This document shows, piece after piece, positions 3,433 through 23,124 of a stretch of DNA of 64,000 bases. The DNA comes from Flavihumibacter soli. GTDB lineage: Bacteria; Bacteroidota; Bacteroidia; Sphingobacteriales; Sphingobacteriaceae. A model generated the notes under the pieces. It was not told the DNA's origin. It worked only from the letters and a program-made list of their open reading frames with translations, and did not search any database. The stretch lies in contig NZ_JAAFZB010000096.1 in NCBI RefSeq assembly GCF_010692725.1, positions 1,054,001-1,118,000 of the forward strand, read 5' to 3'. The number at the start of each line of letters is the position of its first letter. Positions within the stretch are counted from its first letter, which is position 1. The position numbers and the translations under genes were made by a program.

Positions 3433-3433
3433 A

Positions 3434-6652: not shown

Positions 6653-6655
6653 TAT

Positions 6656-7291: not shown

Positions 7292-7354
7292 TCAAAGGAT
7301 GGTTTATTGGCCATCAAATTATAGCAATTTAATAAACCGGTTTTATAATTAATA

Positions 7355-8524
7355 TCAAACCCTAAATCCACTTGGAATATTAACAACCCTGTCTGCCAGC
7401 CAAATACTATTAACTAAACTGCCGGACTGGCAATTCTTAAACATGTTCAGGCGAGGTAATAGTTCCCAAACTGGCCGGGTCATTACCCCATTTCTATTTG
7501 AATAATCTAAAAAAGCATTTCTTTCTTCCAGATCGTTAAAAACTAAAGCATTAAGCCAATAATTGGATCTAGCGTTCTCCATTTCGTTTACTAACATGAC
7601 ATCCAAATTGTCAAATGCATTCCTGTAGGCTTTATTCAATTCCCGCTTATTGTCTACAAAATGATTTAACTGCTCTAATTGTGCACAAGCTAAGGCAGCA
7701 TTCAAGTTTGGCATTCTGTAATTATATCCAATCTCATCATGTACAAACTCCCACTTATGAGGGATTTTAGCTTGAGTTGTTAAATGCTTGGCTCTTTTAG
7801 CAAGATTCTCATCATTAGTTACCAATGCACCTCCTCCTCCACACGTAACCGTTTTATTTCCATTAAAACTAAATACGCCCATTCGGCCGAAAACCCCGGT
7901 ATGCTTGCCCCGATAATAACTTCCTAACGACTCTGCTGCATCTTCGATTAAAATAATGTTCCATTCCTCACATATTGTAACGATCTCGTCGATACGGCAG
8001 GGTAAACCAAAGGTATGCATTGGTACACAAGCGCCGATTCTTCTTCCAGTCAGTTTGTTATAGGTGAAGCCATCAGGTTTTTTCTCTGCTGAAGTTTCCA
8101 AAAAAATTCTTAGTGCTGAAGGCGACATCCCTAAGGTATCTCTATCAACATCAATGAAAACAATTTTGGAACCGATATAGCTAATCGCATTAGCTGTCGC
8201 CACAAAGGTGAGAGCCTGAGACAGAACTTCATCTTCTGGTTGCAGGCCCGATAATAACAAAGCGACATGCAGAGAACTTGTTCCATTAACGGTAGCTATT
8301 GCATATTTTGCTCCTGTTATCTCCACCATCATCGATTCAAATCGGTTTACATAGGTGCCCACAGAAGAAACATACGTAGAATCTATAGCATCCAAAACAT
8401 AATTCCTCTCATTCCCGGCAAATACGGGCGCATGTAAAGGAATAAATTCCTGGATTGGGAATTGTTGTTTAACGGAGCTGACGATTGATTTAAAAAGATC
8501 GACATCGATATTAGGTGTTTCCAT
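7355..8524 (-). CDS. legC: LegC-family PLP-dependent aminotransferase
   Basis: This is a 389-residue DegT/DnrJ/EryC1/StrS aminotransferase. The start of the conserved part (FIPLHAPVFAGNERNYVLDA, then DSTYVSSVGTYV) is typical of the LegC subfamily. The PLP-binding lysine is K224 in FSFNGNKTVTCGGGG, and the cofactor aspartate is in IEDAAESLG. It would add an amino group at C4 of the 4-keto sugar made by LegB, using glutamate as donor. The gene starts 1 bp downstream of legB. Both steps are established for C. jejuni legionaminic acid synthesis; assigning them here rests on subfamily resemblance and operon order. Confidence 0.88.
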   Translation of the reverse strand: METPNIDVDLFKSIVSSVKQQFPIQEFIPLHAPVFAGNERNYVLDAIDSTYVSSVGTYVNRFESMMVEITGAKYAIATVNGTSSLHVALLLSGLQPEDEVLSQALTFVATANAISYIGSKIVFIDVDRDTLGMSPSALRIFLETSAEKKPDGFTYNKLTGRRIGACVPMHTFGLPCRIDEIVTICEEWNIILIEDAAESLGSYYRGKHTGVFGRMGVFSFNGNKTVTCGGGGALVTNDENLAKRAKHLTTQAKIPHKWEFVHDEIGYNYRMPNLNAALACAQLEQLNHFVDNKRELNKAYRNAFDNLDVMLVNEMENARSNYWLNALVFNDLEERNAFLDYSNRNGVMTRPVWELLPRLNMFKNCQSGSLVNSIWLADRVVNIPSGFRV

Positions 8525-8525
8525 A

Positions 8526-9524
8526 TTAGATATTATAAATGTCTGCTTTGTAGTGTTTTAAGTTTTCGGATTTTCTAAACCACTCAATTGTTTCAGCTAG
8601 CCCTGTAGTCAAATTATACTCTGGTTTCCATTTTGTATGCAGCATTATCTTTTTGTTCGAACCAAACAATCTGAATACTTCAGACTTTTCAGGCCGTAAC
8701 CGTTGATCATCTGATATGATCCTGGTGGCAGGATTAATTTGCTGAACAAGTTCATTCGCTAAATCTGCAATAGAAATTTCTGTCTGCATAGCAATATTAC
8801 AATCCTGACCAATAAGAGCATCACTTTTTGCAATTTCAATAAATCCGGCAACGGTGTCTTTAACATAAAGAAGATCCCGCGTTGGAGTGAGATCTCCTAA
8901 TTGTATTTCTTCCTTACCATTTAAAAGCTGCGTAATTATTGTGGGAATTACAGCCCTTGCCGACTGCCTTGGTCCATAAGTATTAAAAGGACGCACAATA
9001 GTTAATGGGAGGTCAAAACTTCTGTAAAATGAATCAGCAATGCAGTCTGCCCCGATCTTTGATGCTGAGTAAGGTGATTGCGGCTGTCTCGCATGCTGCT
9101 CATCAATTGGTACATATTGTGCCGTTCCATACACTTCTGAAGTTGATGTTACCAGCACACGTTCCACATTCATATCTTTAGCTGCCTGAATAATATTCAA
9201 AGTACCTTTTACATTCGTATCAATATACGAGTCAGGAGAGTGATAGCTAAATGGTATTGCAATTAAAGCGGCCAAATGGAATACTACATCTATTTCTTTC
9301 ATTGCGGTTCGTACCCCATTCGGATCACGTACATCGCCGGCAAAAATCTCAATTTGAGCGAGTTGATCTCTAGACAGGCTATCCAACCAACCCCAGCTAT
9401 TAAATGAGTTGTAAAACACAAAAGCTCTTACTTTACAACCCTCATCAATTAAGCGTTCAACTAAATGGCTACCTATAAAACCATCAGCTCCGGTGACTAA
9501 CACTCTTTTATTTAATAATTCCAT
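8526..9524 (-). CDS. legB: LegB-family NAD-dependent NDP-sugar 4,6-dehydratase
   Basis: The 332-residue extended SDR has TGADGFIGSH (residues 11-20) for NAD. The subfamily-typical FYNSFNSWGWLD (about 38-48) follows, then catalytic SxxE in TSTSEVYG and YxxxK (Y152, K156). It closes with TRDLLYVKDT. This pattern fits LegB, the dehydratase that makes GDP-4-keto-6-deoxy-GlcNAc as the first committed step of the GDP-linked legionaminic route. It is the first gene of the nonulosonate block, 11 bp after the polytopic membrane gene, so it is probably transcribed with the upstream genes. A UDP-GlcNAc 4,6-dehydratase is the alternative; the PtmE-like partner favours the GDP sugar. Confidence 0.88.
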   Translation of the reverse strand: MELLNKRVLVTGADGFIGSHLVERLIDEGCKVRAFVFYNSFNSWGWLDSLSRDQLAQIEIFAGDVRDPNGVRTAMKEIDVVFHLAALIAIPFSYHSPDSYIDTNVKGTLNIIQAAKDMNVERVLVTSTSEVYGTAQYVPIDEQHARQPQSPYSASKIGADCIADSFYRSFDLPLTIVRPFNTYGPRQSARAVIPTIITQLLNGKEEIQLGDLTPTRDLLYVKDTVAGFIEIAKSDALIGQDCNIAMQTEISIADLANELVQQINPATRIISDDQRLRPEKSEVFRLFGSNKKIMLHTKWKPEYNLTTGLAETIEWFRKSENLKHYKADIYNI

Positions 9525-9535
9525 TACGAATATTT

Positions 9536-11137
9536 CTAAAAATCATTTTTTGAAAAGTAACTAACCTCAACCAATTGCTCAATTTGTGATTCGAAGGTTC
9601 CAGAGGAATAATATTTCAGCGCTAATAAAAACATTATGTCTTTGACTGATGGGTTTTGATTTTTATGATCAATTAACATGTAGTTTTTGATGGGTCCGGT
9701 ATCCTTATATGATTTCATATTATAGTAATCATATTTTGAGAAAGAAGACACATTATAGTCCTTTGCCAATGCCTTTGTCTCTTCCGCTGAGATAATAAAA
9801 TGTGACTGATCCTTTATTGATTTTTTGATTATCCCGGAGAAACAATAAAACGGATATTCTCGTTCTGTTTCGTTTAAATCTCTTGTGTTATCTATTACTA
9901 AAAACGCCTTGCTATGATTTATTATTTTCGAATCAGCAAAAAGGCGTTCCAATGCTAATTGCTTAAACCAAGAAGATATATACTGAATATTCTGTTTAGT
10001 TGTCGATACAATGAAGAATGAAAGTAAAAGTATTAAGACATTCTTCTGAACTAAACTGCTTTTATACATTCCAACCAGCCATACAATTAAAATGGGTGTA
10101 CTTATTCTCAATAGTATCTGGTGTCTTGTTTCATATCCAGAAAATGAAGGATTTTTTCCAACTATGATATACGCAAACGAACATACTATAAAGAAATAAA
10201 TGCCAACTAATAACCAGTTTTTAGATAAGGTAAACTTCAAATTGTAAACGGGAAAATTCTTTGAATCTCTTAAATAGTAGATTAATCCTAGTGAAATGAG
10301 AATAAAAAAAAGAAATAAATAAAAGGAGGAGCTTATTGTACCGAAAATTTCATAGCCCAGTCCAAATAAAGAATTATTTATAGTAGAAAGTAAATTTTTA
10401 GGAAATGCAACCAGACTATAAATAGATATCTCATTATAATTTTCTATTGCGTATAAATTTGAAGGCTTTAAAAATAAATGTCTAAAAGACCAAAATAAAA
10501 ATGGCAGCAATAAAAAGTCCGTCCAGGAAATTAACCTTCGTAGTATAGTCCTTGATACAATCACTTTATCAGCAGCATAATCTATATATATTGCTATAAA
10601 CAAAACAAAACCCAACATTAATACAAGAGTTGAATTAAGAAATGCAAAGGAAATGAAGTATACTACTAAAGATGATAACCTAAAGAATATTCCTCGTTTA
10701 TTCACAAAGAGAATGAAAAAGTAACTTGCTAAAAGAAATAAAAAGAAACCAATTGTATACGGAAGAGAAACCATTAGGATTTTAGCATCATTATAAGGAA
10801 CGAGTGCAAAAAACGTAGTAAGCCAAAATACCTTATACCTATCATTTAGCAATCCAGACAAAATCTTGTAGAAAATTATGATACCTGAGAACTCAACGAT
10901 AAAAGTAGTTACATGATATAAAATTGCGGGACTTGAACTCAGGTTTTGGAGATAATAAGTAATCGGAAGCATAAACTTTGCGCCAACTCCATAGTAGATA
11001 TCCCTTATACCGGAATAGCTCATATTATATATGCACCAATCATCCCAATAAACGCCATTATTGAACAGCATCAAGAAGTTTCCTAGTGCATATAAGAGCA
11101 ATACCAATCCTAAGGAATACTTATTATTCTCTTTCAT
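9536..11137 (-). CDS. Polytopic membrane protein, GT-C-like, third gene of a Gtr-like trio
   Basis: The 533-residue protein has roughly ten hydrophobic segments in its first 390 residues and a soluble C-terminal part of about 140 residues. Directly after the first membrane segment comes WDDW (residues 31-34). An acidic pair in the first outward loop is a hallmark of GT-C glycosyltransferases, which use polyprenyl-phosphate sugars. I do not recognise a named family. Its position after GtrB-like and GtrA-like genes is where phage and O-antigen gtr clusters carry the serotype-specific transferase, so a role in adding a side-branch sugar outside the inner membrane is inferred. The gene is noticeably AT-rich. 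An O-antigen polymerase (Wzy) is an alternative, since no other Wzy is visible in the window. Confidence 0.72.
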   Translation of the reverse strand: MKENNKYSLGLVLLLYALGNFLMLFNNGVYWDDWCIYNMSYSGIRDIYYGVGAKFMLPITYYLQNLSSSPAILYHVTTFIVEFSGIIIFYKILSGLLNDRYKVFWLTTFFALVPYNDAKILMVSLPYTIGFFLFLLASYFFILFVNKRGIFFRLSSLVVYFISFAFLNSTLVLMLGFVLFIAIYIDYAADKVIVSRTILRRLISWTDFLLLPFLFWSFRHLFLKPSNLYAIENYNEISIYSLVAFPKNLLSTINNSLFGLGYEIFGTISSSFYLFLFFILISLGLIYYLRDSKNFPVYNLKFTLSKNWLLVGIYFFIVCSFAYIIVGKNPSFSGYETRHQILLRISTPILIVWLVGMYKSSLVQKNVLILLLSFFIVSTTKQNIQYISSWFKQLALERLFADSKIINHSKAFLVIDNTRDLNETEREYPFYCFSGIIKKSIKDQSHFIISAEETKALAKDYNVSSFSKYDYYNMKSYKDTGPIKNYMLIDHKNQNPSVKDIMFLLALKYYSSGTFESQIEQLVEVSYFSKNDF

Positions 11138-11176: not shown

Positions 11177-11572
11177 TTAAAATTTGGCGATTGATTTATC
11201 AAAAACAAAATATCTGTTCAAGAAAAAACTCAAGATTCCCATCGGTAAGAGCATTATCGCATTCCCTACATATACATTAATGCCAAGGTATTTAAAGAAA
11301 GACAATCCGAAAAGATTACATAAATAAATCAAAGAATAAACGGCAAAAAACCGAAAAATTAACACATTGTCACGACTCCGAAACACGTATGTTCCAATCG
11401 ACTTAAAATTAAACAGAACACCACAAACTGTACTTATTAACAAGGATATTGGGTAACCTATTCCGCAAAATATAAGAAAAGAAAATAAAGTATATCCGAA
11501 AGCCGTATTTATGCAACTCACAAATACAAATCTCATAATTGCATTTTTAAGAAATGGTTTTATTACATTCAT
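11177..11572 (-). CDS. GtrA-family membrane protein (bactoprenol-linked sugar flippase)
   Basis: The 131-residue protein has four predicted membrane helices and the GtrA-family features: FVFVSCINTAFGYTLFSFLI near the start, F-K in the middle, and a C-terminal NRYFVFDK that matches the family's closing RxxVF motif. GtrA proteins are thought to flip a polyprenyl-phosphate-linked monosaccharide to the outer face of the inner membrane. The start ATG overlaps the stop of the glycosyltransferase gene (ATGA, 4 bp), the usual coupling of gtrA and gtrB. The polytopic protein follows 39 bp downstream. Family membership is clear, the sugar unknown. Confidence 0.87.
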   Translation of the reverse strand: MNVIKPFLKNAIMRFVFVSCINTAFGYTLFSFLIFCGIGYPISLLISTVCGVLFNFKSIGTYVFRSRDNVLIFRFFAVYSLIYLCNLFGLSFFKYLGINVYVGNAIMLLPMGILSFFLNRYFVFDKSIAKF

Positions 11573-12519
11573 TGAGTTTCGTTTTCAAAATTAATTCTTA
11601 GCTTTTCAATTACTAAAGGTCGTTTTTTAACCTGAGTCTGAATTGAACCAATATATTCACCTATTACTCCCAGGAAGAATAATTGAACTCCACCAAAAAA
11701 GAAAATTCCAATGACAAGTGGAGCTATACCTAATTGAAAATTATACCAATCCAATAATTTATAAATAAAATACGCAAATGCTATTAAAATACTAAAAATC
11801 GAAACACTAAAGCCAATGAAGCTTGCCAGTCGCAATGGAAGTTTTGAATGATTCACAAACCCTAACATTGCCATATCGTATAGAGTATAAAAATTATTTT
11901 TGGTATTCCCTTTCTCTCGCTTAGGCTGAGTATATTCTATTTCAAGTCTATTAAATCCGAGCTCAGCAATTAATCCTCTAAAGTAAGGATACGGCTCATC
12001 CAATTCACGTAATACATCAATAAACTGTTTATCATACAGCCCGAAACCGGTAAAATTTTTAACTAAATCAGTATCTGATATCTTTGTGATTATGTTATAA
12101 AAGAGTTTTCTGATCATAAACATCACGCGATTTTCCCTACTTTTATTTTTTACCCCAATTACAATTTTATATCCGTTTTCCCAACTTCTGATAAATTTTT
12201 CAATTAAGGAAGGAGGATCCTGAAGATCAGCAACAATTAAAATAACTGCATCACCTTTAGATTGCAATAAGCCATAATAAGGTGATCTTATATGACCAAA
12301 GTTGCGCGCATTTACAATTATTTTAACATTCCTGTCTTCTGCAGCCAGCTCCTTTAAAATTTCTACTGTATTATCAGTTGATGCATTATCTATAAAAATA
12401 TGTTCATATGAATATCCTGGCAATTTAAGAAGCACCTCTCTAACCTGTTGATATAAGTTTGCAACATTTTCTTCCTCGTTATAACAAGGAGTCACGATAC
12501 TAATTAATTTCATTTTCAT
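11569..12519 (-). CDS. GtrB/DPM1-like polyprenyl-phosphate glycosyltransferase (GT2)
   Basis: The 316-residue protein has a GT2 catalytic domain (SIVTPCYNEEENV at the start, IFIDNASTDNT, and a metal-site VADLQDPP around residues 97-103). Two C-terminal membrane helices follow, about 230-257 and 266-291. This is the GtrB / dolichol-phosphate mannosyltransferase layout, which loads a sugar from a nucleotide donor onto undecaprenyl phosphate on the cytoplasmic side. It stands 41 bp after rfbH and overlaps gtrA by 4 bp. The donor is not known; family members often use UDP-glucose. The start may be at codon 3 (MKLISIV). Confidence 0.9.
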   Translation of the reverse strand: MKMKLISIVTPCYNEEENVANLYQQVREVLLKLPGYSYEHIFIDNASTDNTVEILKELAAEDRNVKIIVNARNFGHIRSPYYGLLQSKGDAVILIVADLQDPPSLIEKFIRSWENGYKIVIGVKNKSRENRVMFMIRKLFYNIITKISDTDLVKNFTGFGLYDKQFIDVLRELDEPYPYFRGLIAELGFNRLEIEYTQPKREKGNTKNNFYTLYDMAMLGFVNHSKLPLRLASFIGFSVSIFSILIAFAYFIYKLLDWYNFQLGIAPLVIGIFFFGGVQLFFLGVIGEYIGSIQTQVKKRPLVIEKLRINFENETQ

Positions 12520-12560: not shown

Positions 12561-13862
12561 TTAATGCAAATAGGATTTAATAACACCATGGATATATTCA
12601 TAGTGAATATTATTTAAACCAGGCCAAACACCCAACCAGAAAGATTGATTCATGATGGTATCTGTATTTGTCAAATCACCCACTACACGATGTCTTATAT
12701 TGGCATAAGCGGGTTGTCGAAGTAAATTACCTCCGAAAAGCAAACGCGTACCAATCTTCTTTTCTTCTAAATGTTGTACCAACATATGACGGTCGTTGGA
12801 ATCGCCTTCACGCAAAGTCAGTAAAAATCCAAACCAGGAAGGTTCGGAATTAGGTGTAGCTTCGGGTAGGATAAATATTTCCTCAAACTCCTTCATTTTC
12901 TCATACAGCAAACCATAATTTTCACGGCGGCGTTGAACAAAATGATCTGCCTTTTTCAGCTGAGATACCCCAAAGGCGGCCTGCATATCTGTAACTTTCA
13001 AATTAAAGCCGATATGGGAGTATGTATATTTATGATCATAACCATATGGTAGAGATCCAAGTTGCTGGGAAAAGCGGCAACCGCATGTATTATCTTTTCC
13101 GGGCTCACAATAACAATCCCTGCCCCAGTCTCTGAAGCTTTCTGCCAATTTAGCTAATTCAGGATTATTGATCACTACCGCTCCTCCCTCACCCATTGTG
13201 ATGTGGTGTGCAGGGTAGAAGGAGAAAGTTGAAATATCCCCAAAAGTGCCTGTTTTCTTTCCTCTGAATGTTGCTCCTAATGAATCGCAATCATCTTCAA
13301 CTACCCACAGATTATACTTTTTGGCTACACGCATAACCTCATCGAGATCAAAAGGATTTCCTAAAGAATGGGCAATCATAATGGCCTTTGTTTTAGGGCT
13401 CACTGCCGCTTCGATCATTTCCGGTTTTACATTATGAGTAGCGATGTCAACATCTACAAAAACGGGAATTGCACCAAACTGAATTATGGGATTTATGGTT
13501 GTCGGGAATCCTGCAGCCACTGTTATCACTTCATCCCCCGGCCGAATAGCCCGGTCACCCAATTTAGGTGACGTTAAAGTATAGAATGCGACTAAATTTG
13601 CTGAGGAACCCGAATTTACCAATAATGCTTTATTGGCTCCAAAATATTGAGCGAACTCATATTCAAATTGATTAGAATAACGGCCTGCAGTCAGCCACCC
13701 GTCTAAAGCTGCATCAACTCCAAACAAAATATCTTCCTCATCCAATACCTTGCCCGTAACAGGTATATAGTTCTCTCCGGGAATAATTCTCTGTGTTGAC
13801 TTGATCCTCGCAATTTCACGCAGGCTCTTCTCTAAACCGGGCTGGTTAATGTTTTGTAACAT
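12561..13862 (-). CDS. rfbH: CDP-4-keto-6-deoxyglucose 3-dehydrase (E1)
   Basis: This 433-residue protein is the PMP-dependent iron-sulfur dehydrase of 3,6-dideoxyhexose synthesis. Two features set it apart from ordinary aminotransferases of the same fold. The PLP lysine is replaced by histidine in [15 protein letters not shown] (H219/H220). A cysteine cluster in [17 protein letters not shown] (C250, C252, C260, C262) supplies the [2Fe-2S] ligands. With an E3-type reductase it removes the C3 hydroxyl of CDP-4-keto-6-deoxy-D-glucose. Length is normal for RfbH. It lies 42 bp after the thiamine-diphosphate enzyme gene and completes the CDP-dideoxyhexose set with rfbF and rfbG. Confidence 0.95.
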
Positions 13863-13904
13863 GGATTTCTAAAATGTAATAACTACTAAAAAATGTAATG
13901 AGAA

Positions 13905-15623
13905 TCAGGTGCCTTCCATGTCGATGGGCTTAGCAAATGGTTCCATTTCTGTTATCGGCCTCCCGAATGCAAGTTTGGGATATGTGTTCGTGTGGGGATC
14001 AATCATCACCTGTAACAATTGCGGTTTATTACGGTTCTCATCAACCCATAACCAAGAAACTGCCTCTTCAATCTCATCGGGACTACTGATTGTTTTTGAA
14101 TCTATTTGATATGCAGAGGCAACTTTTTCAAAATCAGGAGCACTGTAGCCCCAATAAGTTGATTGATAGCGTGACTCGAAATAACTATCTTGAAACTGCC
14201 TGATCATACCAAGCGTTCTATTGTTCATCACGATTATTTTGACCGGAAGTTTATTCCTGACAATTGTCTGCAATTCTTGTATATTTAATTGCATACAACC
14301 ATCGCCTATGATTGCAACTACTGCTGCATTGTTGCAAGCGATGCTTGTGCCAATCGCTGCTGGTAATGCAAACCCCATTGCACCCATGCCGCCAGAGGTG
14401 AAAAAGCTTTGACCTTTTACAATTTCTAAAGATTGAGCAGCCCACATTTGATGGCTGCCAACATCAGCTAAGTAGGCAACTGCGCTCTTACTCGCGGCCG
14501 ACAATTCATGTATAAATATATTGGGATTTATACCTGTTGGCTGAAGCTCATTAATATCCGGCCATTTACTCTTCAAATCTTCAATATAGAGTGTCCAGGC
14601 TTCAGGTTCAGTAAATCTTAAGGTCTGAATGTGTTTAAAAAAGGCTGGAAAAAACACTCTTAAATCGAGTAAAACCGGGATACACCCTTTAACGCGATTA
14701 TTTATTTCGCCTTTTTCACAGTCAACGTGATAGATCTTCCTGTTTCCAATGAAGCCTGTATCGGCACCGGTTTGTCTGATATCAAGTCTGCTTCCCAGAA
14801 CAATCAGGAGATCACATTCTCCAAACGCTATATTAGCCCATCTATTACCGTAGCTACCGATAAAGCCCACTCTAAGTCTATCATCAAAAGACATTGCGTC
14901 CAATGCAAGCAAAGTGGTTATTACCGGAATTTGTGTAGTGTAAACGAACCGGTCGAACTCCGCCTGCGTAGAAGAAGACTTCACGCCCCTGCCAACCAAA
15001 ATTAAAGGTCGCTTAGCTTTTTTAATGTCTGAAATCAAATCGTCAAAGACGCCTTCTGAAGAGAACTCTATCGTTCGCTCGGTGTTCTGAAAGAATTTTG
15101 GCTCAATATCAGCACGCTGAACATCCATAGGAATATCAATAACCACCGGCCCGGGCCTCCCTTCTATTGCAATTTGGAAGGCCTGCTCAAAAATTGACGG
15201 GATTTCACTAGCATCATTAATTTGAAAACAAGCTTTCGTAATTGGAGTCGCCATGGCAATAATATCCGTTTCTTGAAAACCCAGCTGACGGATGGCCTTT
15301 TCGCCTTTTAATTCATGCCGGTTTACCTGGCCGGTAATAAAAATCGCCGGAGAAGAATCGAAGAAGCAGCTTCCAATGCCAGTCAACAAATTTGTTGCCC
15401 CGGGACCACTCGTTGCCATCGCTACGCCTGGTAATCCTGTCACCCGCCCATAAGCATCAGCAGCGAAGGCAGCTGATTGTTCGTGATGCATCGTGACTAT
15501 GTTTATTGACGTACGTTGATTTATAGAATCTAAAAGATGTGTTATCATACCTCCCGATAGCTCAAACACACACCTTATTCCCTTATTTTCTAAAAAATCA
15601 GCTATAAAATCTGATGCTTTCAT
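13905..15623 (-). CDS. Thiamine-diphosphate enzyme, acetolactate-synthase-like, candidate YerE
   Basis: The 572-residue protein has the three-domain layout of acetolactate synthase. The N-terminal pyrimidine-binding domain carries the catalytic glutamate E48 in MHHEQSAAF. A central FAD/NAD-like domain follows (LILVGRGVKSSS). The C-terminal diphosphate-binding domain has GDGCMQLNIQEL ending in VMNN. No regulatory subunit gene or ilv genes are nearby. It sits inside the CDP-3,6-dideoxyhexose block and overlaps the reductase gene by 4 bp. In Yersinia, YerE is a related flavin/TPP enzyme that transfers an acetyl unit from pyruvate to C4 of CDP-3,6-dideoxy-4-keto-glucose on the way to yersiniose. 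That role fits this context well but is inferred. Ordinary acetolactate synthase is the alternative. Confidence 0.8.
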   Translation of the reverse strand: MKASDFIADFLENKGIRCVFELSGGMITHLLDSINQRTSINIVTMHHEQSAAFAADAYGRVTGLPGVAMATSGPGATNLLTGIGSCFFDSSPAIFITGQVNRHELKGEKAIRQLGFQETDIIAMATPITKACFQINDASEIPSIFEQAFQIAIEGRPGPVVIDIPMDVQRADIEPKFFQNTERTIEFSSEGVFDDLISDIKKAKRPLILVGRGVKSSSTQAEFDRFVYTTQIPVITTLLALDAMSFDDRLRVGFIGSYGNRWANIAFGECDLLIVLGSRLDIRQTGADTGFIGNRKIYHVDCEKGEINNRVKGCIPVLLDLRVFFPAFFKHIQTLRFTEPEAWTLYIEDLKSKWPDINELQPTGINPNIFIHELSAASKSAVAYLADVGSHQMWAAQSLEIVKGQSFFTSGGMGAMGFALPAAIGTSIACNNAAVVAIIGDGCMQLNIQELQTIVRNKLPVKIIVMNNRTLGMIRQFQDSYFESRYQSTYWGYSAPDFEKVASAYQIDSKTISSPDEIEEAVSWLWVDENRNKPQLLQVMIDPHTNTYPKLAFGRPITEMEPFAKPIDMEGT

Positions 15624-16537
15624 CGCTGCTTATGTTTTATGTAGTACTGAACTGTGCGATCTAACGCTTCATTGAAATCAGTAAATTTTACTTTGCCCAA
15701 TTGTTTTTCTATTTTTTCGATTGAACCCTCTACATGCATTGACTGGTTTTTTCGATATGGAATTGCTCCAAAGTTCAACTTAAAACTTGGATTTATTTCA
15801 TTTTTTATGAGTTCTAATAAAGATCTCAACGTTCGAACTTCATTGGATGAAATGTTATACACCCCTGATTCGACATCCTTATGGATTATATTAGCAATGA
15901 CGTCCGAAAGATCCTGCACATACATATAGGCATATTTCTGTTCCCCATAAGTCAGATCCATCTGCTGTTCACTCAACATTTTACTTATGACTGAAGGTAT
16001 TAACCAGGTGGAATCTTCCTTTTCGCCAAACACTGCAAAAACTCTTAACCACACCCACTTGATCTCATTCAGAGACGCAAATGATTTTAAAATTTCTAAT
16101 GAAGCTAATTTGACAGTTCCGTAGGCACTAATAGGTGACGTCGTCTCTAACTCGGAGACTTTGCCATTGATTAAACCATATTCAGCCTGTGATCCTAGGA
16201 AAATAAACCTTTTCAATTTAACAGCCGTTCCGATTTCTAATAATGAGATCAAGAACGGTATATTCCTTCCTTGTTCACTCCAATCATCCCGGGAATCCGC
16301 AGTCACACCGATCCAAGCACTATGTATAATTATATCAGGTCTTTTTTCAATTATTTCCGCTTGCCAGCTTCCCTCATCCAGAGCAACCCAGTCTATTCGT
16401 TCTGAGAATTCTAAGCATCTCCATGGATCCGACTCGATCCTCTTTAAGCCGATAACGTGGAAATTCTGATTGACTAAATTCTCGGCAATGTGCGAACCAA
16501 TAAATCCTGTTATTCCTGTTATTAAAACCCTAAGCAT
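15620..16537 (-). CDS. NAD(P)-dependent sugar reductase/epimerase, candidate YerF
   Basis: The 305-residue extended SDR has ITGITGFIGSHIAENL at the N-terminus, an active-site serine/glutamate in LGSQAEYG and YGTVK as the YxxxK motif. The C-terminal substrate domain is shorter than in most epimerases. It lies between rfbG (8 bp overlap) and the thiamine-diphosphate enzyme (4 bp overlap). In related loci this slot is taken by the final reductase of the dideoxyhexose pathway: abequose, paratose or colitose type, or YerF for yersiniose. The adjacent YerE-like enzyme makes a YerF-like reduction of the acetyl side chain the best guess. A 4-keto reductase making a plain dideoxyhexose is the alternative. 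Confidence 0.78.
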   Translation of the reverse strand: MLRVLITGITGFIGSHIAENLVNQNFHVIGLKRIESDPWRCLEFSERIDWVALDEGSWQAEIIEKRPDIIIHSAWIGVTADSRDDWSEQGRNIPFLISLLEIGTAVKLKRFIFLGSQAEYGLINGKVSELETTSPISAYGTVKLASLEILKSFASLNEIKWVWLRVFAVFGEKEDSTWLIPSVISKMLSEQQMDLTYGEQKYAYMYVQDLSDVIANIIHKDVESGVYNISSNEVRTLRSLLELIKNEINPSFKLNFGAIPYRKNQSMHVEGSIEKIEKQLGKVKFTDFNEALDRTVQYYIKHKQR

Positions 16538-17618
16538 CTAAGTACTTTAAGATTTGTGATTTCGTGAATTCATTAATGCTTAAACGATCATCGAAAAATT
16601 TCGTATACCAATCGAAGGACATTTTTACAGCAGTCCTTGCATTCAATTTGGGCTCCCAATTTAGTTCCGCAATTGCCTTGCTGATATCCAATTTTAATAA
16701 TCCGGCTTCATGGAGTTGGGTTCCGGAGTTCTCGATCCTGTAACTACCGCTTCCCCATGAGGCTATCGATAGATTCACCATATCTATTACAGGCAAAGCA
16801 TCCGTTCCATAAGGACCAAAATTATAGGCTTGACTGTAGCTCTCAGGATTGCTATTCAAGCTCATCCCTAACAGTAAATAAGCCACAATAGGTTCCAATA
16901 CATGTTGCCAGGGACGTACCGAAGCAGGATTTCGAATAACAACCTCTTCGTTCCTAGATAGGGACCTTATAATGTCCGGGATTAGTCGGTCTTTGGACCA
17001 GTCGCCACCTCCAATAACATTCCCTGCGCGAGCTACAGCTATCGCCTTCTGATGCTGGCTATAACTCTTGATACTGAAAAAAGAGTTTCTATAAGAGTCA
17101 ATGATAATTTCAGCGCAAGCTTTACTGGCACTGTAGGGATCATACCCTCCTAACCTGTCTGATTCACGATAAGGATGGTACCATTCGTTGTTGTGGTATA
17201 CTTTATCGGTAGTGACTAAGATGGCTGAACACTTGTGTTGAAGTAAGGCCAATGCATCAAGTAAGTTCGCCGTACCTACAGCATTTATTTCGAATGTCTC
17301 CGATGGTATCTCGTAAGAAAGCCTTACCAGAGGCTGGGCAGCCAAATGGAAAATAAAATCGGGCTGAAATTCAGAAACTGCATTCATTAATGCTTTTCGA
17401 TCTCTTAAGTCTGAAATTATGGAATCGCAAACCTTATCTCCCTCAATTAAATTATAGAGGTCAATTTCATTTTGCGGAACAAGAGCAAACCCTCTAACTT
17501 CAGCGCCTAAAATGCTAAGGGTTTTTAATAACCACGCTCCCTTAAAGCCTGTATGCCCTGTTAAAAAGACCTTTTTCCCTTTATAACACTCCTTTAGCTT
17601 ATCAAAAATTTTTACCAT
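16530..17618 (-). CDS. rfbG: CDP-glucose 4,6-dehydratase
   Basis: This is a CDP-glucose 4,6-dehydratase of about 362 residues. It has the NAD site VFLTGHTGFKGAWLLK, the catalytic YSASKACAE, and the RfbG-typical ARAGNVIGGGDWSKDRLIPD and RPWQHVLEP segments. It converts CDP-glucose to CDP-4-keto-6-deoxyglucose. I place the start at ATG 17618 (MVKIFDKLKECYKGKK), which overlaps rfbF by 7 bp. An upstream in-frame start at 17648 would add ten residues (MGYRKLTLEN) and overlap rfbF by 37 bp, and is less likely. The 3' end overlaps the reductase gene by 8 bp. Confidence 0.94.
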   Translation of the reverse strand: MVKIFDKLKECYKGKKVFLTGHTGFKGAWLLKTLSILGAEVRGFALVPQNEIDLYNLIEGDKVCDSIISDLRDRKALMNAVSEFQPDFIFHLAAQPLVRLSYEIPSETFEINAVGTANLLDALALLQHKCSAILVTTDKVYHNNEWYHPYRESDRLGGYDPYSASKACAEIIIDSYRNSFFSIKSYSQHQKAIAVARAGNVIGGGDWSKDRLIPDIIRSLSRNEEVVIRNPASVRPWQHVLEPIVAYLLLGMSLNSNPESYSQAYNFGPYGTDALPVIDMVNLSIASWGSGSYRIENSGTQLHEAGLLKLDISKAIAELNWEPKLNARTAVKMSFDWYTKFFDDRLSINEFTKSQILKYLDA

Positions 17619-18385
17619 ATTTTCCAGGGTGAGCTTCCTGTATCCCACATTTCATTTAAATCATGCTTATCTTTTAAAGTATCCATTGGACGCCAAAACC
17701 CATAATGCTTGAAGGCATTCATTTTTCCGGAAGAGGCAATTTCCTGCATAGGCTCATGTTCCCATACTGTAGAGTCCCCATCTTTTATATAATCAAAGAC
17801 TCCGGGCTCGCAAACCATATATCCACCGTTTATCCATGAGCCATCCCCCTTAGGTTTCTCTAAAAACGAACGAACCTCATTTTCAGATGACAAATCTAAA
17901 GCGCCAAATCTCCCTGATGGCTGAACAGAAGTAACTGTAAAGAGCTTGCCGTGGTCCATATGGTAATCCACCAGTTCTTTAATGTTGATATCTCCAACCC
18001 CGTCACCATAGGTTAACATGAATGTTTCATCATTTATATACTTCCTGATACGCTTTATTCTACCTCCGGTCATAGAATTATCACCTGTGTCTACCAGAGT
18101 GATTTTCCAGGGTTCAGCTTCAGATTCGTGTACCTCGATCGCGTTATTTTTTAGATCAATGGTCACATCTGACTTATGTAAGAAATAATTTGCGAAATAC
18201 TCCTTTACTACATATCCCTTATAGCCCAGACATACGATAAAATCGTTGAAACCATAGGTGGAGTATATTTTCATTATATGCCACAAAATTGGCATACCGC
18301 CAATTTCCACCATTGGTTTAGGCCTTACCACCGTTTCCTCAGATAACCTGGTTCCTAAGCCCCCGGCTAAAATAACTACCTTCAT
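17612..18385 (-). CDS. rfbF: Glucose-1-phosphate cytidylyltransferase
   Basis: This 257-residue nucleotidyltransferase has the signature VILAGGLGTRLSEET followed by RPKPMVEIGGMPILWHIMK, the standard RfbF/AscA start. FMLTYGDGVGDINI and WMRPMDTLKDK-like (here WRPMDTLKDK) segments further support it. It forms CDP-glucose from CTP and glucose-1-phosphate, the entry step of the CDP-deoxysugar block. It overlaps rfbG and follows the FNR-type reductase by 15 bp. Cytoplasmic, normal length. Confidence 0.95.
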   Translation of the reverse strand: MKVVILAGGLGTRLSEETVVRPKPMVEIGGMPILWHIMKIYSTYGFNDFIVCLGYKGYVVKEYFANYFLHKSDVTIDLKNNAIEVHESEAEPWKITLVDTGDNSMTGGRIKRIRKYINDETFMLTYGDGVGDINIKELVDYHMDHGKLFTVTSVQPSGRFGALDLSSENEVRSFLEKPKGDGSWINGGYMVCEPGVFDYIKDGDSTVWEHEPMQEIASSGKMNAFKHYGFWRPMDTLKDKHDLNEMWDTGSSPWKIW

Positions 18386-18400
18386 ATTATTTATATTAAT

Positions 18401-19432
18401 CTATATCTTGAGATAAACATTATCAGAAAGAGGATGGCTGCAGCATAATAAATATTCATCTTGTTGCAGATCTGCCCTGTTTTTCGCAAGTCCTATCATT
18501 TTAACTTCACCACTTAAACAAATAGCTTTGCAAGTACTGCAATTGCCCGTTTGACAAGAGTAAGGTAATTCCAGTCCTGCGTCTAGACCAGCCTCCAATA
18601 TGCTCTTGCCTTTTATTATTTCAAGTGTATGTTCTATATTTAGATATTGTAATTTAATTGTGTGAGTATTTATCTCGTTAAAATCTTTTGGGTCTTTAAT
18701 CAACTCAAAATCTTCAAAGAAGATGTTATCCTGAAGCACCTTTAGTTCATTTAACGCAGCTTTAACCGATTCTTTCAAACCGGCAGGACCACAGATATAA
18801 TGTTGCGAATTACCTGTATCCACTCCATTGAGAATGCTTAATGCATATTCTTCATTAATTCTCCCTTCAATAATATCAGGATTATCTTCTCTGACAGTGA
18901 GTTGTGTAAAAAAATGCCATACTTTGAACTGCTTGGGGTATTTTATTAATAAATCTTCAATTTGACTTAAAAAGATAGTTGATTCATGATTTCGGTTCCC
19001 ATAAATTAAATTAACAGCTAATAGTGAGTTTGAAATTAAAACTTCTTTTATCAAAGACAGTAATGGTGTTATACCACTCCCTACGCCCCAGAAGTAGATT
19101 GAAGTAATATTCTCTTTGGCCTCATAAACAAAATCGCCCAAAGGTTCAATCACTTCTATTGAATCCCCTATTCGCACAAGGTCATGAATATGATTAGAAA
19201 CAATACCACTTGGAATTCTTTTTATAGTGACTAAAAGATGAGAATCAACACCAGGAGTTGAAGAGAAAGAATATGGCCGTACATATCGTCTGCCATTTAT
19301 TCTAAAAATTAAAGAAAGATACTGCCCTGCTCTGTATTTTATTTTTCGTAAGGAAGGCTGATTAAAACAGAGAGTCAGGGTGTCATTTGTTTCTTTTCGA
19401 ATACCGACAACCTTTAACGTATAATTTCTCAT
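18401..19432 (-). CDS. FAD / [2Fe-2S] NAD(P)H reductase, candidate E3 partner of RfbH
   Basis: The 343-residue protein has an N-terminal FAD domain (YRAGQYLSLIF, then RPYSFSS for flavin binding) and a central NAD(P) domain (FWGVGSGITPLLSLI and HYICGPAGLKESV). The C-terminal plant-type ferredoxin domain has cysteines C293, C298, C301 and C330 or C331 (SCQTGNCSTC and LLCC). Next to rfbF, rfbG and rfbH its job should be electron supply to RfbH, as done by CDP-6-deoxy-delta-3,4-glucoseen reductase (AscD/E3). The domain order is unusual: as I recall, AscD carries the ferredoxin domain at the N-terminus, whereas this is the PaaE/Hmp-like order. It lies 1 bp from the Wzz gene. Confidence 0.86.
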   Translation of the reverse strand: MRNYTLKVVGIRKETNDTLTLCFNQPSLRKIKYRAGQYLSLIFRINGRRYVRPYSFSSTPGVDSHLLVTIKRIPSGIVSNHIHDLVRIGDSIEVIEPLGDFVYEAKENITSIYFWGVGSGITPLLSLIKEVLISNSLLAVNLIYGNRNHESTIFLSQIEDLLIKYPKQFKVWHFFTQLTVREDNPDIIEGRINEEYALSILNGVDTGNSQHYICGPAGLKESVKAALNELKVLQDNIFFEDFELIKDPKDFNEINTHTIKLQYLNIEHTLEIIKGKSILEAGLDAGLELPYSCQTGNCSTCKAICLSGEVKMIGLAKNRADLQQDEYLLCCSHPLSDNVYLKI

Positions 19433-19433
19433 T

Positions 19434-20606
19434 CTAAGCCATTATGCTTTTGAAAATTCTCTTAGAGAATAAAAACATTACCGTAAATAAACCCCCTAAA
19501 AATCCCCCAAGTAAAAGTCCCTTTAGTTTTCCAAATTTTTCCTTTTGCAATGGCAGCACTGGCCTGTCAATAACCTGAATCAATGGCGTTTCCTTTCTTA
19601 AGGAAACTTTTGAAATCTCCAAATTTTTCACCAGTTCCGTCAATATAGCTTGGTTTGCCTGGACGTCAACTTGTCTTCGCTGCGAAGGCACACGCAATAT
19701 TTGCCGTGAGGGGTTCGGATTTGGGTTTACATCTAATGATGCTGCAACCCCTGAAAGTGCTCCATTTAATTGTCTTCTTACAGAATCGGTCTGGTGCTGC
19801 AGAATGCTTACGTTCTGATAAGATTTTTTAGTTTTCGTTTCGACATAAAAATCAGCAACCTCTTTTACTAAAATCTCCGTAAAGTATTTGGAAAACAATT
19901 CATTGCCTGAATTAACCTTTACGGATATGATGCTCAGTTTTTTGTCAATCTTAGCTACCGACAAATTACTTTTTGTTAAAGTTTTATGAAATTCCCCTAT
20001 TAAACTATCCTGAGTTCGTGTGAATTGTTTCGGATCATTGCCTACCTCGAAAAGCAAATTCTTGAACTCAGGTTTATCCTTCCATTTATCACGAAGCTGA
20101 TTGAAATCAATATAAAGTTCAACCAATGTTTGCTTTTTCCCATTTACATCGACAGGGGTCAGAAGCGTTTTTTGAATCATGGTGCGCGACTTCATCAGTA
20201 CCAAAAGATTATCTCCTGAAAAAGCGCCCCCACCAGAACCACCCAAGTCGAAACCAAACTGACTGGCCAAACCCAAAGCGCCGCCCAAACCACCGCCACC
20301 TGCTTTGTCATCTTCCAAAGCAAAACTTAACTCCGCTGTATACACCGGTTTCTTGTAAAAGGCGTATGCCAAGCCTATCAATGCGCCGATAATTCCGGCT
20401 ACAAAAATAACAAACCACTTAGACAGTATGTAGTTCCACCATTCACGGATTCTAAGAATTAACTCCTTTAGAGAGATCTCATCATCATTACCTGAATTCG
20501 TGTTATTTAGAATCTCTTTAGGAGACGTGTCAGAATTACCCGCCCCTGCACTTTCTTCTCTTGAAGAAAATGTCAAGAAATCTCCCTGCTGATCGTTACT
20601 TATCAT
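19434..20606 (-). CDS. Wzz-type polysaccharide chain-length/co-polymerase protein
   Basis: The 390-residue protein has a cytoplasmic N-terminal tail of about 55 residues and a first membrane helix at about 60-82 (FVIFVAGIIGALIGLAYAFY). A large periplasmic part with coiled-coil-prone stretches follows, with a final helix at about 363-382 preceded by a proline-containing DRPVLPLQKEKFGK. This is the polysaccharide co-polymerase layout. A glycine-rich insert after the first beta strands (AGGGGLGGALGLASQFGFDL) is common in Bacteroidetes members. There is no C-terminal tyrosine kinase domain. It controls length or export of the polymer together with the SLBB protein whose gene lies 1 bp upstream. 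Confidence 0.88.
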   Translation of the reverse strand: MISNDQQGDFLTFSSREESAGAGNSDTSPKEILNNTNSGNDDEISLKELILRIREWWNYILSKWFVIFVAGIIGALIGLAYAFYKKPVYTAELSFALEDDKAGGGGLGGALGLASQFGFDLGGSGGGAFSGDNLLVLMKSRTMIQKTLLTPVDVNGKKQTLVELYIDFNQLRDKWKDKPEFKNLLFEVGNDPKQFTRTQDSLIGEFHKTLTKSNLSVAKIDKKLSIISVKVNSGNELFSKYFTEILVKEVADFYVETKTKKSYQNVSILQHQTDSVRRQLNGALSGVAASLDVNPNPNPSRQILRVPSQRRQVDVQANQAILTELVKNLEISKVSLRKETPLIQVIDRPVLPLQKEKFGKLKGLLLGGFLGGLFTVMFLFSKRIFKSIMA

Positions 20607-20607
20607 A

Positions 20608-23124
20608 TTATTGGATCAGGTTTAATAAAATTACCGCAAGCGAAGCTAAACCAGCGCTAATGCTCACTAATTCTCCAGGAGTGAGTTTGCGCTTCGCATC
20701 CTTCGTAGGCACAAAAATTTCTGCTCCTGGCTGAACGCCGGGATAATTATTAAAAAACAACAAGGCTTTCCTGGTGCTTTTAACAGAGCCGTTGGCATAA
20801 ACAATATATGATCTGCTTTTCGACGAACGGTCAGAGAAACCACCGGCTTCAGAAATATATCTTTTAAATCCTTTGCCATTGTCATAAATTATAGAATTAG
20901 GAGATAGTACTTCACCGCTAACCTTGATAGTCTGGAGCTGCTTCGGCACGCGTATCGTGTCGCCCTCTTCCAGCGTCAGATCATAATCGGAACCAGGCTT
21001 TGCAAGGATTTTTTCAAGGTTAATCCCCACATAGATATTTCTGATGACTTCCTCATCAACCAATTTGGTTGTGTCAGTAGAATCTCTCTGCAGGCGTTGA
21101 AACTTCCGAAGCCTTTCCAGTTCTTCGGTCTTGCTATCTAGTTCATTCTTTTTTGCTGACTTTTTCGACCCTGGTCCTGGACGCTTCAAAGAGGCTCCTT
21201 TTGTATAGGCAAGCGCCGTCAAACCTCCCGCTCTTTTAACGAGGTCGGATATGCGCTCGTCCTTACGGACTACCGTGTAGGTTCCGGGGTAAAGAACTTC
21301 TCCTTCTATACGTACCTGTCTTTGCACTTCATAGCCGGTCTCACCCCGCACAGACACAATATCAAAAGGCTGAAGAATAAATTTATTGCCCATGACCTTC
21401 AGATTCGAATCCACGTCAACCTGATAAACCCTCGCGGTGATTGCAGAGGTCGACAGTACATTACTGTTATCTACCCTTCTTGAAATTTCTATTCTTGTGG
21501 GACTGGCACCTTCTTTAAAGCCGCCGGACTTAATGATTAAGTCTTCCAGGCTCATTCCTTCAGAAAAATCAAATGTTCCAGGCTCACGCACTTCGCCATC
21601 TATGGAAACCTTGTATTCATCGCGAAGTTCAAAAATGGAAGCGATGGTCACTATATCTTCTCTTTGCAACGGAATATCAGGGCTGGTGCCTGCAAGTATC
21701 TTATCTAAATCAAATGATATCAACTGCGAACTGTTATCAGCCTTCAGCCTTGTAATATATCCGCGCGACATGAAGGCATCTTCGGTCACTCCTTCTGCTT
21801 TCTGAATGAGCAGGCTGAGAGTCATACCTTTTGCAAGCTCAAACTGCCCGGGACGAAACACAGCCCCTTCAATGGTCACCCTATTCTCGAAGCGATCAAG
21901 GATTGGCTCGGCAAAATATTTATCACCGTTTTTAGGCTGATAACTACCGAATTCAGAGGCAAAAACATCTGTGATGCGTCTCTCGCGATCCGTATTTTGG
22001 AGAATTTTAATGCGGGCACTATATGCCTGGGTGGTAAAACCACCCGCAAAACTAATCACATCCTGTAATGATTCACCCTGTACAGCTTCAAAAATTGCAG
22101 GCCGCTTCACTTCGCCGGTAAACTCAACGCGGATCTTATAAGTGGGAACACGTATAATGTCTTGATCCTGCAGGCGGATGTTATTTGTTTGAAACCCTTT
22201 GAGCAGGAACTCATAGACATCGAGTTTACCAACAACACGGTTATTCCGAATAATTTCTATTTCCCGGAAAGAACCGTTTTCTGTAGGACCGCCTGAAGCA
22301 TACAAAGCATTGAAAGCGGTTGCGAGCGAAGGCAGTGTATAAGAGCCCGGCTTCACCACCTCTCCAAGGAGGGTCACCCGGATGCTTCTGATATTACCTA
22401 TACCGATGGTGACCTGTGTGCGGCCGCTCCGTATTCCCGGATAGGTAGACGCCAGCCTTGACCGAATCCTTTGCGTGGCCTGGTCAACCGTTAGGCCGCT
22501 AACCGCTATGATACCTGCATATTCAACCCGGATGGTTCCTTCGGGACTAACTTCAAGTTTATAATCCGCCTCGTTGTCCCCGGTGATATTAATCACGATC
22601 TCATCATCCGGACCAATCATGTAATTCCCAGGTGTTGCAATACGCAGATTGGGTTCGAACGTCAGGTTACTATTTTTGAACAAACTGGCACCGAAGATCT
22701 TCGATTTCAATTCGAGCAGAGCCTTTTCAGCCTCAGTTTCAGGCTCCGGCTGATCGTCCTTGAGCGTATCCTGCTCGAAGTTCAGTTCACGACCGGAAGA
22801 TTTCCTGGTCTTAGACGCTGGATCAGAGCTATCCTTCTCTTTCTGGTCGTCCTGCTTTTTAATCTTTTCAACCCGTTCCCTGAGCTTTCTGATTTCCTCC
22901 GGCCTCATACCCCTCGCTTGCGCTACCTGCTCCAGTTGGGCATCCGACAAACCGGTGGACTCCACCTGTCTCATGAATGAGCGAATCTGCTCATCCGAAA
23001 GATCGTCCACCCGGACAGTAGCTAAGTTTTGAGTATTAATGGTTTGCGAAACTGCAGGAACAGTAACCAGCACCGCAAAAAGCAGTATGATTATTCTGCA
23101 AATTCGTTTGTGTGTAATAGCCAT
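20608..23124 (-). CDS. SLBB-domain polysaccharide export protein (Wza-like)
   Basis: The 838-residue protein has a signal peptide (hydrophobic residues 9-24, then VSQ). A charged, coiled-coil-prone region of about 110 residues follows. A Poly_export domain begins with YMIGPDDEIVINITG (about 168-182). It carries a series of SLBB modules recognisable by repeats of GEVxxPGxY/F (VTLLGEVVKPGSYTL, VEFTGEVKRPAIFEA, VTIEGAVFRPGQFEL, VSIDGEVREPGTFDF, VRIEGEVLYPGTYTV, IKVSGEVLSPNSIIY). It ends in a hydrophobic helix. This is the large Bacteroidetes form of Wza, an outer-membrane or periplasmic channel for capsule or exopolysaccharide. It pairs with the Wzz-type protein encoded next. Confidence 0.93.
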   Translation of the reverse strand: MAITHKRICRIIILLFAVLVTVPAVSQTINTQNLATVRVDDLSDEQIRSFMRQVESTGLSDAQLEQVAQARGMRPEEIRKLRERVEKIKKQDDQKEKDSSDPASKTRKSSGRELNFEQDTLKDDQPEPETEAEKALLELKSKIFGASLFKNSNLTFEPNLRIATPGNYMIGPDDEIVINITGDNEADYKLEVSPEGTIRVEYAGIIAVSGLTVDQATQRIRSRLASTYPGIRSGRTQVTIGIGNIRSIRVTLLGEVVKPGSYTLPSLATAFNALYASGGPTENGSFREIEIIRNNRVVGKLDVYEFLLKGFQTNNIRLQDQDIIRVPTYKIRVEFTGEVKRPAIFEAVQGESLQDVISFAGGFTTQAYSARIKILQNTDRERRITDVFASEFGSYQPKNGDKYFAEPILDRFENRVTIEGAVFRPGQFELAKGMTLSLLIQKAEGVTEDAFMSRGYITRLKADNSSQLISFDLDKILAGTSPDIPLQREDIVTIASIFELRDEYKVSIDGEVREPGTFDFSEGMSLEDLIIKSGGFKEGASPTRIEISRRVDNSNVLSTSAITARVYQVDVDSNLKVMGNKFILQPFDIVSVRGETGYEVQRQVRIEGEVLYPGTYTVVRKDERISDLVKRAGGLTALAYTKGASLKRPGPGSKKSAKKNELDSKTEELERLRKFQRLQRDSTDTTKLVDEEVIRNIYVGINLEKILAKPGSDYDLTLEEGDTIRVPKQLQTIKVSGEVLSPNSIIYDNGKGFKRYISEAGGFSDRSSKSRSYIVYANGSVKSTRKALLFFNNYPGVQPGAEIFVPTKDAKRKLTPGELVSISAGLASLAVILLNLIQ

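Follow-up and report, generated by a model that had tools for sequence, protein, structure and literature searches.

A predicted yersiniose-type sugar-branching gene block in Flavihumibacter soli and the association of its GtrB-like glycosyltransferase clade with thiamine diphosphate enzymes

The yersiniose pathway of Yersinia and Pseudomonas comprises ddhA-D, yerE and yerF. Yersiniose has been described in Burkholderia, Budvicia and Pseudomonas (PMC4753412) and in Legionella (a title cited in PMC7867332), it accompanies 8-epi-legionaminic acid in the Vibrio fischeri O-antigen (PMC7940393), homologues of ddhA-D, yerE and yerF have been recognised in Pseudomonas WCS417 (PMC4509608), and more than 200 YerE-like enzymes are known by sequence, the sugar structure being unidentified for most (PMC12247030). 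Here we describe a block of six closely packed genes on the minus strand at 12561-19432 of a 64,000-nucleotide stretch of the Flavihumibacter soli genome (the window; assembly GCF_010692725.1, contig NZ_JAAFZB010000096.1, positions 1,054,001 to 1,118,000). The block has the same activity set as the yersiniose pathway, and the cluster very probably makes a C4-branched (two-carbon, yersiniose-type) cytidine diphosphate (CDP)-3,6-dideoxyhexose. Compared with the described yersiniose pathway, the window differs in its gene order (E3-ddhA-ddhB-SDR-TPP-ddhC, where E3 is an E3-type reductase, SDR a short-chain dehydrogenase/reductase and TPP an enzyme dependent on thiamine diphosphate, ThDP), in a reductase with its 2Fe-2S domain last, and in having a Gtr-like module and legionaminic-type genes downstream. 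An initial annotation of this DNA had regarded a branched octose outside Yersinia and its relatives as remarkable; that view does not stand, as yersiniose and YerE-like enzymes beyond Yersinia had already been published. Our own literature search for yersiniose in Bacteroidetes, thin on subscription journals, surfaced only the V. fischeri work.

Much depends on whether the TPP enzyme is YerE-like or a biosynthetic or catabolic acetolactate synthase merely located in a polysaccharide locus. It is acetohydroxyacid synthase (AHAS)-like over its full length, with 484.1 bits against the acetolactate synthase equivalog TIGR00118, and its AlphaFold2 model (predicted local distance difference test score, pLDDT, 84.8) fits AHAS structures almost as well as it fits its best Foldseek match, 5ahk. 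The TIGR00118 score nevertheless falls under the cut-off of 538.35, and among solved structures the best sequence match is again 5ahk, from Pseudomonas protegens (468.8 bits, 44% identity), ahead of an Arabidopsis AHAS at 316.9 bits. We take 5ahk to be PpYerE, although the entry was deposited as an acetohydroxy acid synthase, and the provisional nature of this identification weighs against our assignment. Valine 479 of the 5ahk chain coincides with the V479 of PpYerE named in PMC12247030.

In a 41-row tree, 28 YerE-type rows, PpYerE included, formed one group (support 97/93), apart from six JanthE-type rows and seven IlvB rows (100/100 each), and a quick 88-row tree gave the same grouping; the program flagged long branches in both trees. 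The window enzyme lies in the sister clade to PpYerE, which holds 26 rows in the 41-row tree and 80 in the quick tree. Eleven alignment columns carry one residue in 82/82 YerE-type rows and that residue in 0/7 IlvB rows. Like PpYerE, the window enzyme has the catalytic glutamate (Glu48, kept in 82/82 YerE-type rows) and the ThDP motif GDG (Gly440 in 81/82, with one gap). At the Met/His/Trp positions of the AHAS acceptor site it has Ser257 (S/T/A), Tyr258 and Phe477, whereas the IlvB rows have Met in 7/7, His in 7/7 and Trp in 6/7. The phylogenetic comparison with YerE and IlvB that the initial annotation had proposed thus places the enzyme with PpYerE, and the firm grouping with biosynthetic acetolactate synthases that it had named as the contrary outcome appears neither in the trees nor in the residues.

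The genomic setting points the same way. No small-subunit gene adjoins the TPP gene, and the genome has a separate IlvB, 37% identical to the TPP enzyme. We also collected related loci: one scan of genome contigs with a YerE-specific fragment yielded 395 stretches that encode relatives, of which the best 80 were kept. Because 45 residues from the window clade served for the ranking, the 80 loci lean towards that clade; they are labelled as 13 phyla (3 unlabelled), include many metagenome-assembled genomes (MAGs), and some end early at contig ends. Of the 80, 62 had a homologue of ddhA, 60 one of ddhB and 63 one of ddhC. Taken together, these results make an acetolactate synthase very improbable: the TPP enzyme is, by all these comparisons, YerE-like, and we predict with high confidence that it carboligates a CDP-4-keto sugar. 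A third ThDP enzyme of the genome (G000:C96:1176138-1177838 in our labelling of genomes, G, and contigs, C), 28% identical, lies about 58 kb beyond the window end. In plasmid and phage searches all matches had less than 60% identity to the TPP protein, and those that were listed and annotated were acetolactate synthases.

Four further genes of the block are consistent with a supply of the acceptor. The initial annotation had read rfbF, rfbG and rfbH (here ddhA, ddhB and ddhC) and an E3-type reductase as a pathway to CDP-3,6-dideoxy-4-keto-glucose, and this reading holds, with ddhA, ddhB and ddhC all above curated NCBIfam equivalog cut-offs. DdhC has His where LegC, an aminotransferase of the same locus, has its pyridoxal phosphate-binding Lys, and its cysteines (Cys192-X57-Cys250-X1-Cys252-X7-Cys260) follow the E1 dehydrase pattern. 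The E3-type reductase has flavin- and nicotinamide-binding domains followed by a C-terminal 2Fe-2S domain (Cys293/298/301/331), and its best NCBIfam match is PaaE, below cut-off. In classical E3 proteins (AscD/DdhD) the 2Fe-2S domain comes first; the window protein does not have that domain order, and its role may still be the same. The SDR contains the motifs GxxGxxG and Tyr139-x3-Lys143. All six genes were recovered where the initial annotation had placed them, with the YerE-like carboligase and adjoining SDR inside the CDP-dideoxyhexose genes, as were the overlaps of 4-8 bp that it had described (ddhB/SDR 8 bp, SDR/TPP 4 bp). The listed start of ddhB is a GTG that gives a 37 bp overlap with ddhA; an in-frame ATG at codon 11, ending at 17618, would reduce this to 7 bp. 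We rejected the possibility that the six genes are grouped by chance, as 22 of the 80 loci show exactly the same order (7 Pedobacter, 7 Flavobacterium, 7 Mucilaginibacter and 1 Sphingobacteriales MAG), and 21 of them also share the 8-bp overlap between ddhB and the SDR gene. Four more loci have five of the genes without this E3.

The SDR could act in either of two ways. It could be a 4-ketoreductase yielding an unbranched 3,6-dideoxyhexose of the abequose or paratose type, with the TPP enzyme acting elsewhere; members of this SDR superfamily do perform such reductions. Its distribution in 151 genomes of the window's family, counting the SDR as present at E of at most 1e-50, argues otherwise. 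The TPP gene occurs in seven of these genomes (the window genome counted, and none of the other listed genomes of its genus) and ddhC in 17, among them all seven TPP-bearing ones, while the SDR was found in four, every one TPP-bearing. The resulting split (4/7 TPP-bearing versus 0/10 ddhC-bearing, TPP-less genomes; Fisher p 0.015, this and later Fisher tests taking no account of relatedness) links the SDR to branching rather than to dideoxyhexoses as such. In 26 of the 80 loci (the 22 six-gene and 4 five-gene blocks), moreover, the SDR immediately precedes the TPP gene. A 4-ketoreductase is therefore an improbable reading, and the SDR likely acts on the branch. Two observations count against this assignment: the SDR is below the cut-off in three of the seven TPP-bearing family genomes, and other SDRs occupy its place in at least two of them (L078 and L153, L being our label for loci). 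The latter suggests exchangeable finishing steps.

Which ketoacid the TPP enzyme uses bears on the length of the branch. On the donor side Val388 (79/80 rows) and Phe116 (80/80) are conserved and shared with PpYerE and IlvB, whereas all six JanthE-type rows have Asn, Ser or Met at the Val388 position and Val or Asp at the Phe116 position. These YerE/AHAS-like residues make pyruvate the likeliest donor and a two-carbon branch the likely product; we consider pyruvate the probable donor, with the caveat that donor type was judged against PpYerE and JanthE only. The different ketoacid for which the initial annotation had allowed has so far found no support: the window enzyme retains the residues at which the donor-variable JanthE type differs from AHAS. 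A longer or hydroxylated donor, as in ErwE or JanthE, would give the same pathway with a longer branch. The window clade shares only 44% identity with PpYerE, JanthE was the sole long-donor protein compared, and PMC12247030 describes YerE-like enzymes that use such donors. This alternative is nonetheless unlikely: in addition to the residues, the TPP enzyme does not group with the JanthE/long-donor type, and the scanned window genes around it gave no HpcH/HpaI aldolase-like (or other aldolase) match and no dehydroquinate (DHQ)-synthase-like match, unlike the JanthE-type cluster L143. In L143 (1290-6577) the JanthE-type gene is followed by an SDR, a DHQ-synthase-like gene, an HpcH/HpaI aldolase-like gene and a second SDR, a gene set that suggests a hydroxy-ketoacid donor made to order; among JanthE-type clusters, L143 alone was annotated as deeply as the aldolase-like genes. 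Further JanthE-type clusters of the same family, f18 in our labelling, are L145, L148 and L149.

With pyruvate as donor, we infer every chemical step of the route as follows, taking as observed the gene content and order, the YerE-like membership of the TPP enzyme and the association of the SDR and the GtrB clade (below) with ThDP enzymes. DdhA would form CDP-glucose, DdhB would convert it to the 4-keto-6-deoxy sugar, and DdhC with the E3-type reductase would take off the C3 oxygen. The YerE-like enzyme would then decarboxylate pyruvate on ThDP and add an acetyl unit at the C4 ketone, and the SDR would reduce the resulting ketone of the branch, leaving a hydroxyethyl group. The GtrB-like family 2 glycosyltransferase (GT2) may move the sugar from CDP onto undecaprenyl phosphate, GtrA may flip the lipid-linked sugar, and the 533-aa polytopic protein may attach it, outside the inner membrane, to a surface glycan in which a legionaminic-type acid is probably present as well (Table 1).

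Table 1. Positions in the window of the six-gene block, the Gtr-like module and neighbouring surface-glycan genes.
Feature	Position	Strand	Basis
E3-type reductase (ddhD role)	18401..19432	-	Pfam FAD_binding_6, NAD_binding_1, Fer2 in that order
ddhA/rfbF, glucose-1-phosphate cytidylyltransferase	17612..18385	-	TIGR02623, 427.7 bits (cut-off 300.25)
ddhB/rfbG, CDP-glucose 4,6-dehydratase	16530..17648	-	TIGR02622, 450.2 bits (cut-off 278.45)
Extended SDR, proposed branch-ketone reductase (YerF-like role)	15620..16537	-	PF01370
Predicted YerE-like ThDP carboligase (TPP enzyme)	13905..15623	-	Tree, residues, best structure 5ahk
ddhC/rfbH, E1 dehydrase	12561..13862	-	NF011936, 695.6 bits (cut-off 423)
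GtrB-like polyprenyl-phosphate glycosyltransferase (GT2)	11569..12519	-	PHROG 841 'GtrB-like O-antigen conversion', E 2e-72
GtrA-like flippase	11177..11572	-	PF04138, E 2.8e-11; 4 bp overlap with GtrB-like gene
533-aa polytopic protein, candidate periplasmic glycosyltransferase	9536..11137	-	Position only
Wzz/GNVR-like export gene	19434..20606	-	Pfam
SLBB/Poly_export Wza-like gene	20608..23124	-	Pfam
Nonulosonic (legionaminic-type) acid genes	1062..9524	-	NCBIfam

Downstream of ddhC, the GtrB-like, GtrA-like and 533-aa polytopic genes stand in a row, as in the GtrA-GtrB-Gtr serotype-conversion systems; unlike those, the window module is tied to CDP-dideoxy-sugar genes and ThDP enzymes, and its polytopic protein has no family match (none in Pfam, NCBIfam or PHROG). 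The AlphaFold2 model of the polytopic protein (mean pLDDT 41.2) was too poor for use. We found only two relatives, in L022 and (incomplete) in L146; each adjoins the same GtrB clade and conserves Trp31-Asp32 after the first helix.

We compared GT2 proteins from 12 genomes, picked for a GT2 match already noted close to a YerE-type gene. The best GT2 of each was 54-71% identical to the window GtrB and the other GT2 matches 25-44%, the only departure being one genome with two pieces of a duplicate. With the GT2 fragments L120 and L126 left out, a paralogue-rooted tree split the GtrB clade from the paralogues at 100/100. In one of these 12 genomes (G541) the best GtrB copy accompanies a JanthE-type enzyme in another cluster (L151), and the YerE-type gene has a 44% identical copy as its neighbour.

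A search of 395 genomes drawn across the phylum, not selected for context (E up to 1e-85), identified nine further carriers of the GtrB clade, all in family f18. A ThDP branching candidate is present in seven of the nine stretches (six JanthE-type enzymes and one split transketolase, in L146), ddh genes in six (counting the adjoining stretch L164 for L144) and a GtrA-like gene in eight. Of the two stretches without a ThDP candidate, one ends near the gene and the other has transposases beside it; in both genomes a different contig carries a JanthE-type gene, accompanied in one of them by ddhC, ddhB and ddhA. Among the 86 genomes of f18, nine carry the GtrB clade (the same nine), nine a JanthE-type enzyme and eight both (Fisher p 1.5e-9), that is, the JanthE-type enzyme occurs in 8/9 GtrB carriers versus 1/77 non-carriers. 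The exceptions are G044 (GtrB with the split transketolase) and G307 (JanthE-type without GtrB; 85% complete). Like the window enzyme, JanthE (8rph) and its f18 relatives are ThDP carboligases beside ddh genes with the same GtrB clade in the cluster; they differ in being 32-34% identical to the window enzyme (blastp, most f18 members) and in their donor-side residues. In a control of ten stretches around GtrB paralogues there was no ddhA, ddhB or ThDP gene, and two contained a remote ddhC match (28-29%). Chance proximity of GtrB and ThDP genes was accordingly rejected (0/10 paralogue stretches against 7/9 carriers).

Whether the branched sugar itself passes through this module can be read in two ways. 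A conventional cytoplasmic glycosyltransferase may add it, as happens in Yersinia, with GtrA, GtrB and the 533-aa protein carrying another sugar, for example glucose. Characterised GtrB enzymes use UDP-glucose, and we know of none that uses a CDP-sugar. A GtrB homologue above 250 bits lies within the flanks of only 12 of the 80 YerE-type loci, which means that most such loci do without GtrB nearby. In the window's own family the clade is present in 1/151 genomes, the window's own, and the GtrB beside the YerE-type gene of L056 is a 44% outlier assigned to the paralogues. All of these points tell against a lipid-carrier route. In its favour, the distribution of the GtrB clade over the examined genomes tracks three types of ThDP branching enzyme, and that of GtrB paralogues in such genomes does not (0/10). 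We give a lipid-carrier route for the branched CDP-sugar about an even chance, and cytoplasmic transfer somewhat less than that. A broader proposal, which we put forward tentatively, is that the GtrB clade is dedicated to ThDP-branched CDP-3,6-dideoxy sugars (made with YerE, JanthE or a split transketolase), each attached singly on the periplasmic side as an exchangeable decoration. If so, this GtrB would to our knowledge be the first CDP-sugar-dependent polyprenyl-phosphate glycosyltransferase. Our literature searches, thin on subscription journals, found no report linking GtrB with dideoxyhexose, GtrA/GtrB with acetolactate synthase, or transketolase with dideoxyhexose; the coupling of branched CDP-sugars to the GtrB clade appears to be new as far as searched, and it is testable.

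Two further observations concern this clade. First, the window GT2 is 70-71% identical to those of the Cytophagales loci L084 and L091, the 71% being with a Cytophagaceae MAG, and the TPP enzyme only 48%; this disparity makes the window cluster look like a mosaic in which a separately acquired Gtr module adjoins a sugar block of Sphingobacteriaceae type. Second, in L146 (G044:C51:103000-112797) the split transketolase (5240-6917) stands between ddhA-ddhB-ddhC and SDR-GtrA-GtrB. No split transketolase would have been known in a CDP-dideoxyhexose cluster before, and this one is predicted to add a hydroxyacetyl branch; the 13 putative ketone-branching split transketolases known according to PMC12247030 all come from Streptomycetes.

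The block and its module are set among surface-glycan genes, after Wza-/Wzz-like export genes and before the legionaminic-type acid genes. The latter comprise LegB, LegC, NeuD-type, NeuB-type and NeuC-type genes, all over their NCBIfam cut-offs, and a nucleotidyltransferase, a PseF-like cytidylyltransferase and an SDR, all below theirs. The V. fischeri O-antigen combines the same two sugar pathways, yersiniose and legionaminic-type (PMC7940393); that organism belongs to another phylum. An O-antigen is one possible destination, and the export neighbours would fit a capsule or exopolysaccharide equally well.

As to its distribution, the TPP gene occurs in 3 of the 395 genomes drawn across the phylum, the window genome counted, and the best 80 of 395 stretches include no locus from Yersinia, Pectobacterium or Mycobacterium. 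The TPP rows of L033 (labelled Actinomycetes) and L036 (labelled Chloroflexi) are identical, so at least one phylum label is doubtful. Across the six-gene blocks (L013-L082), ddhC is steady at 84-89% identity to the window's, and ddhA falls into two classes (about 77-89% and about 58-62%); ddhA seems to have been replaced on its own within the block. One f18 locus (L152, G342:C24) has a PpYerE-type enzyme beside ddhA, ddhB and ddhC, with 49% identity to PpYerE and 42% to the window TPP enzyme, which places both YerE lineages in the phylum. The YerE-type cassette is thus real, of a known kind and widespread in Bacteroidota.

YerE-like enzymes are in demand for the biocatalytic synthesis of chiral tertiary alcohols, and the block conserved in Pedobacter, Flavobacterium and Mucilaginibacter offers culturable hosts together with a clear prediction. 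The GtrB association suggests a route by which branched sugars may reach the surface, and a lipid carrier for a CDP-sugar is directly testable. The GtrB clade may also serve as a marker gene for further branching enzymes, having already led to a split transketolase outside Streptomyces.

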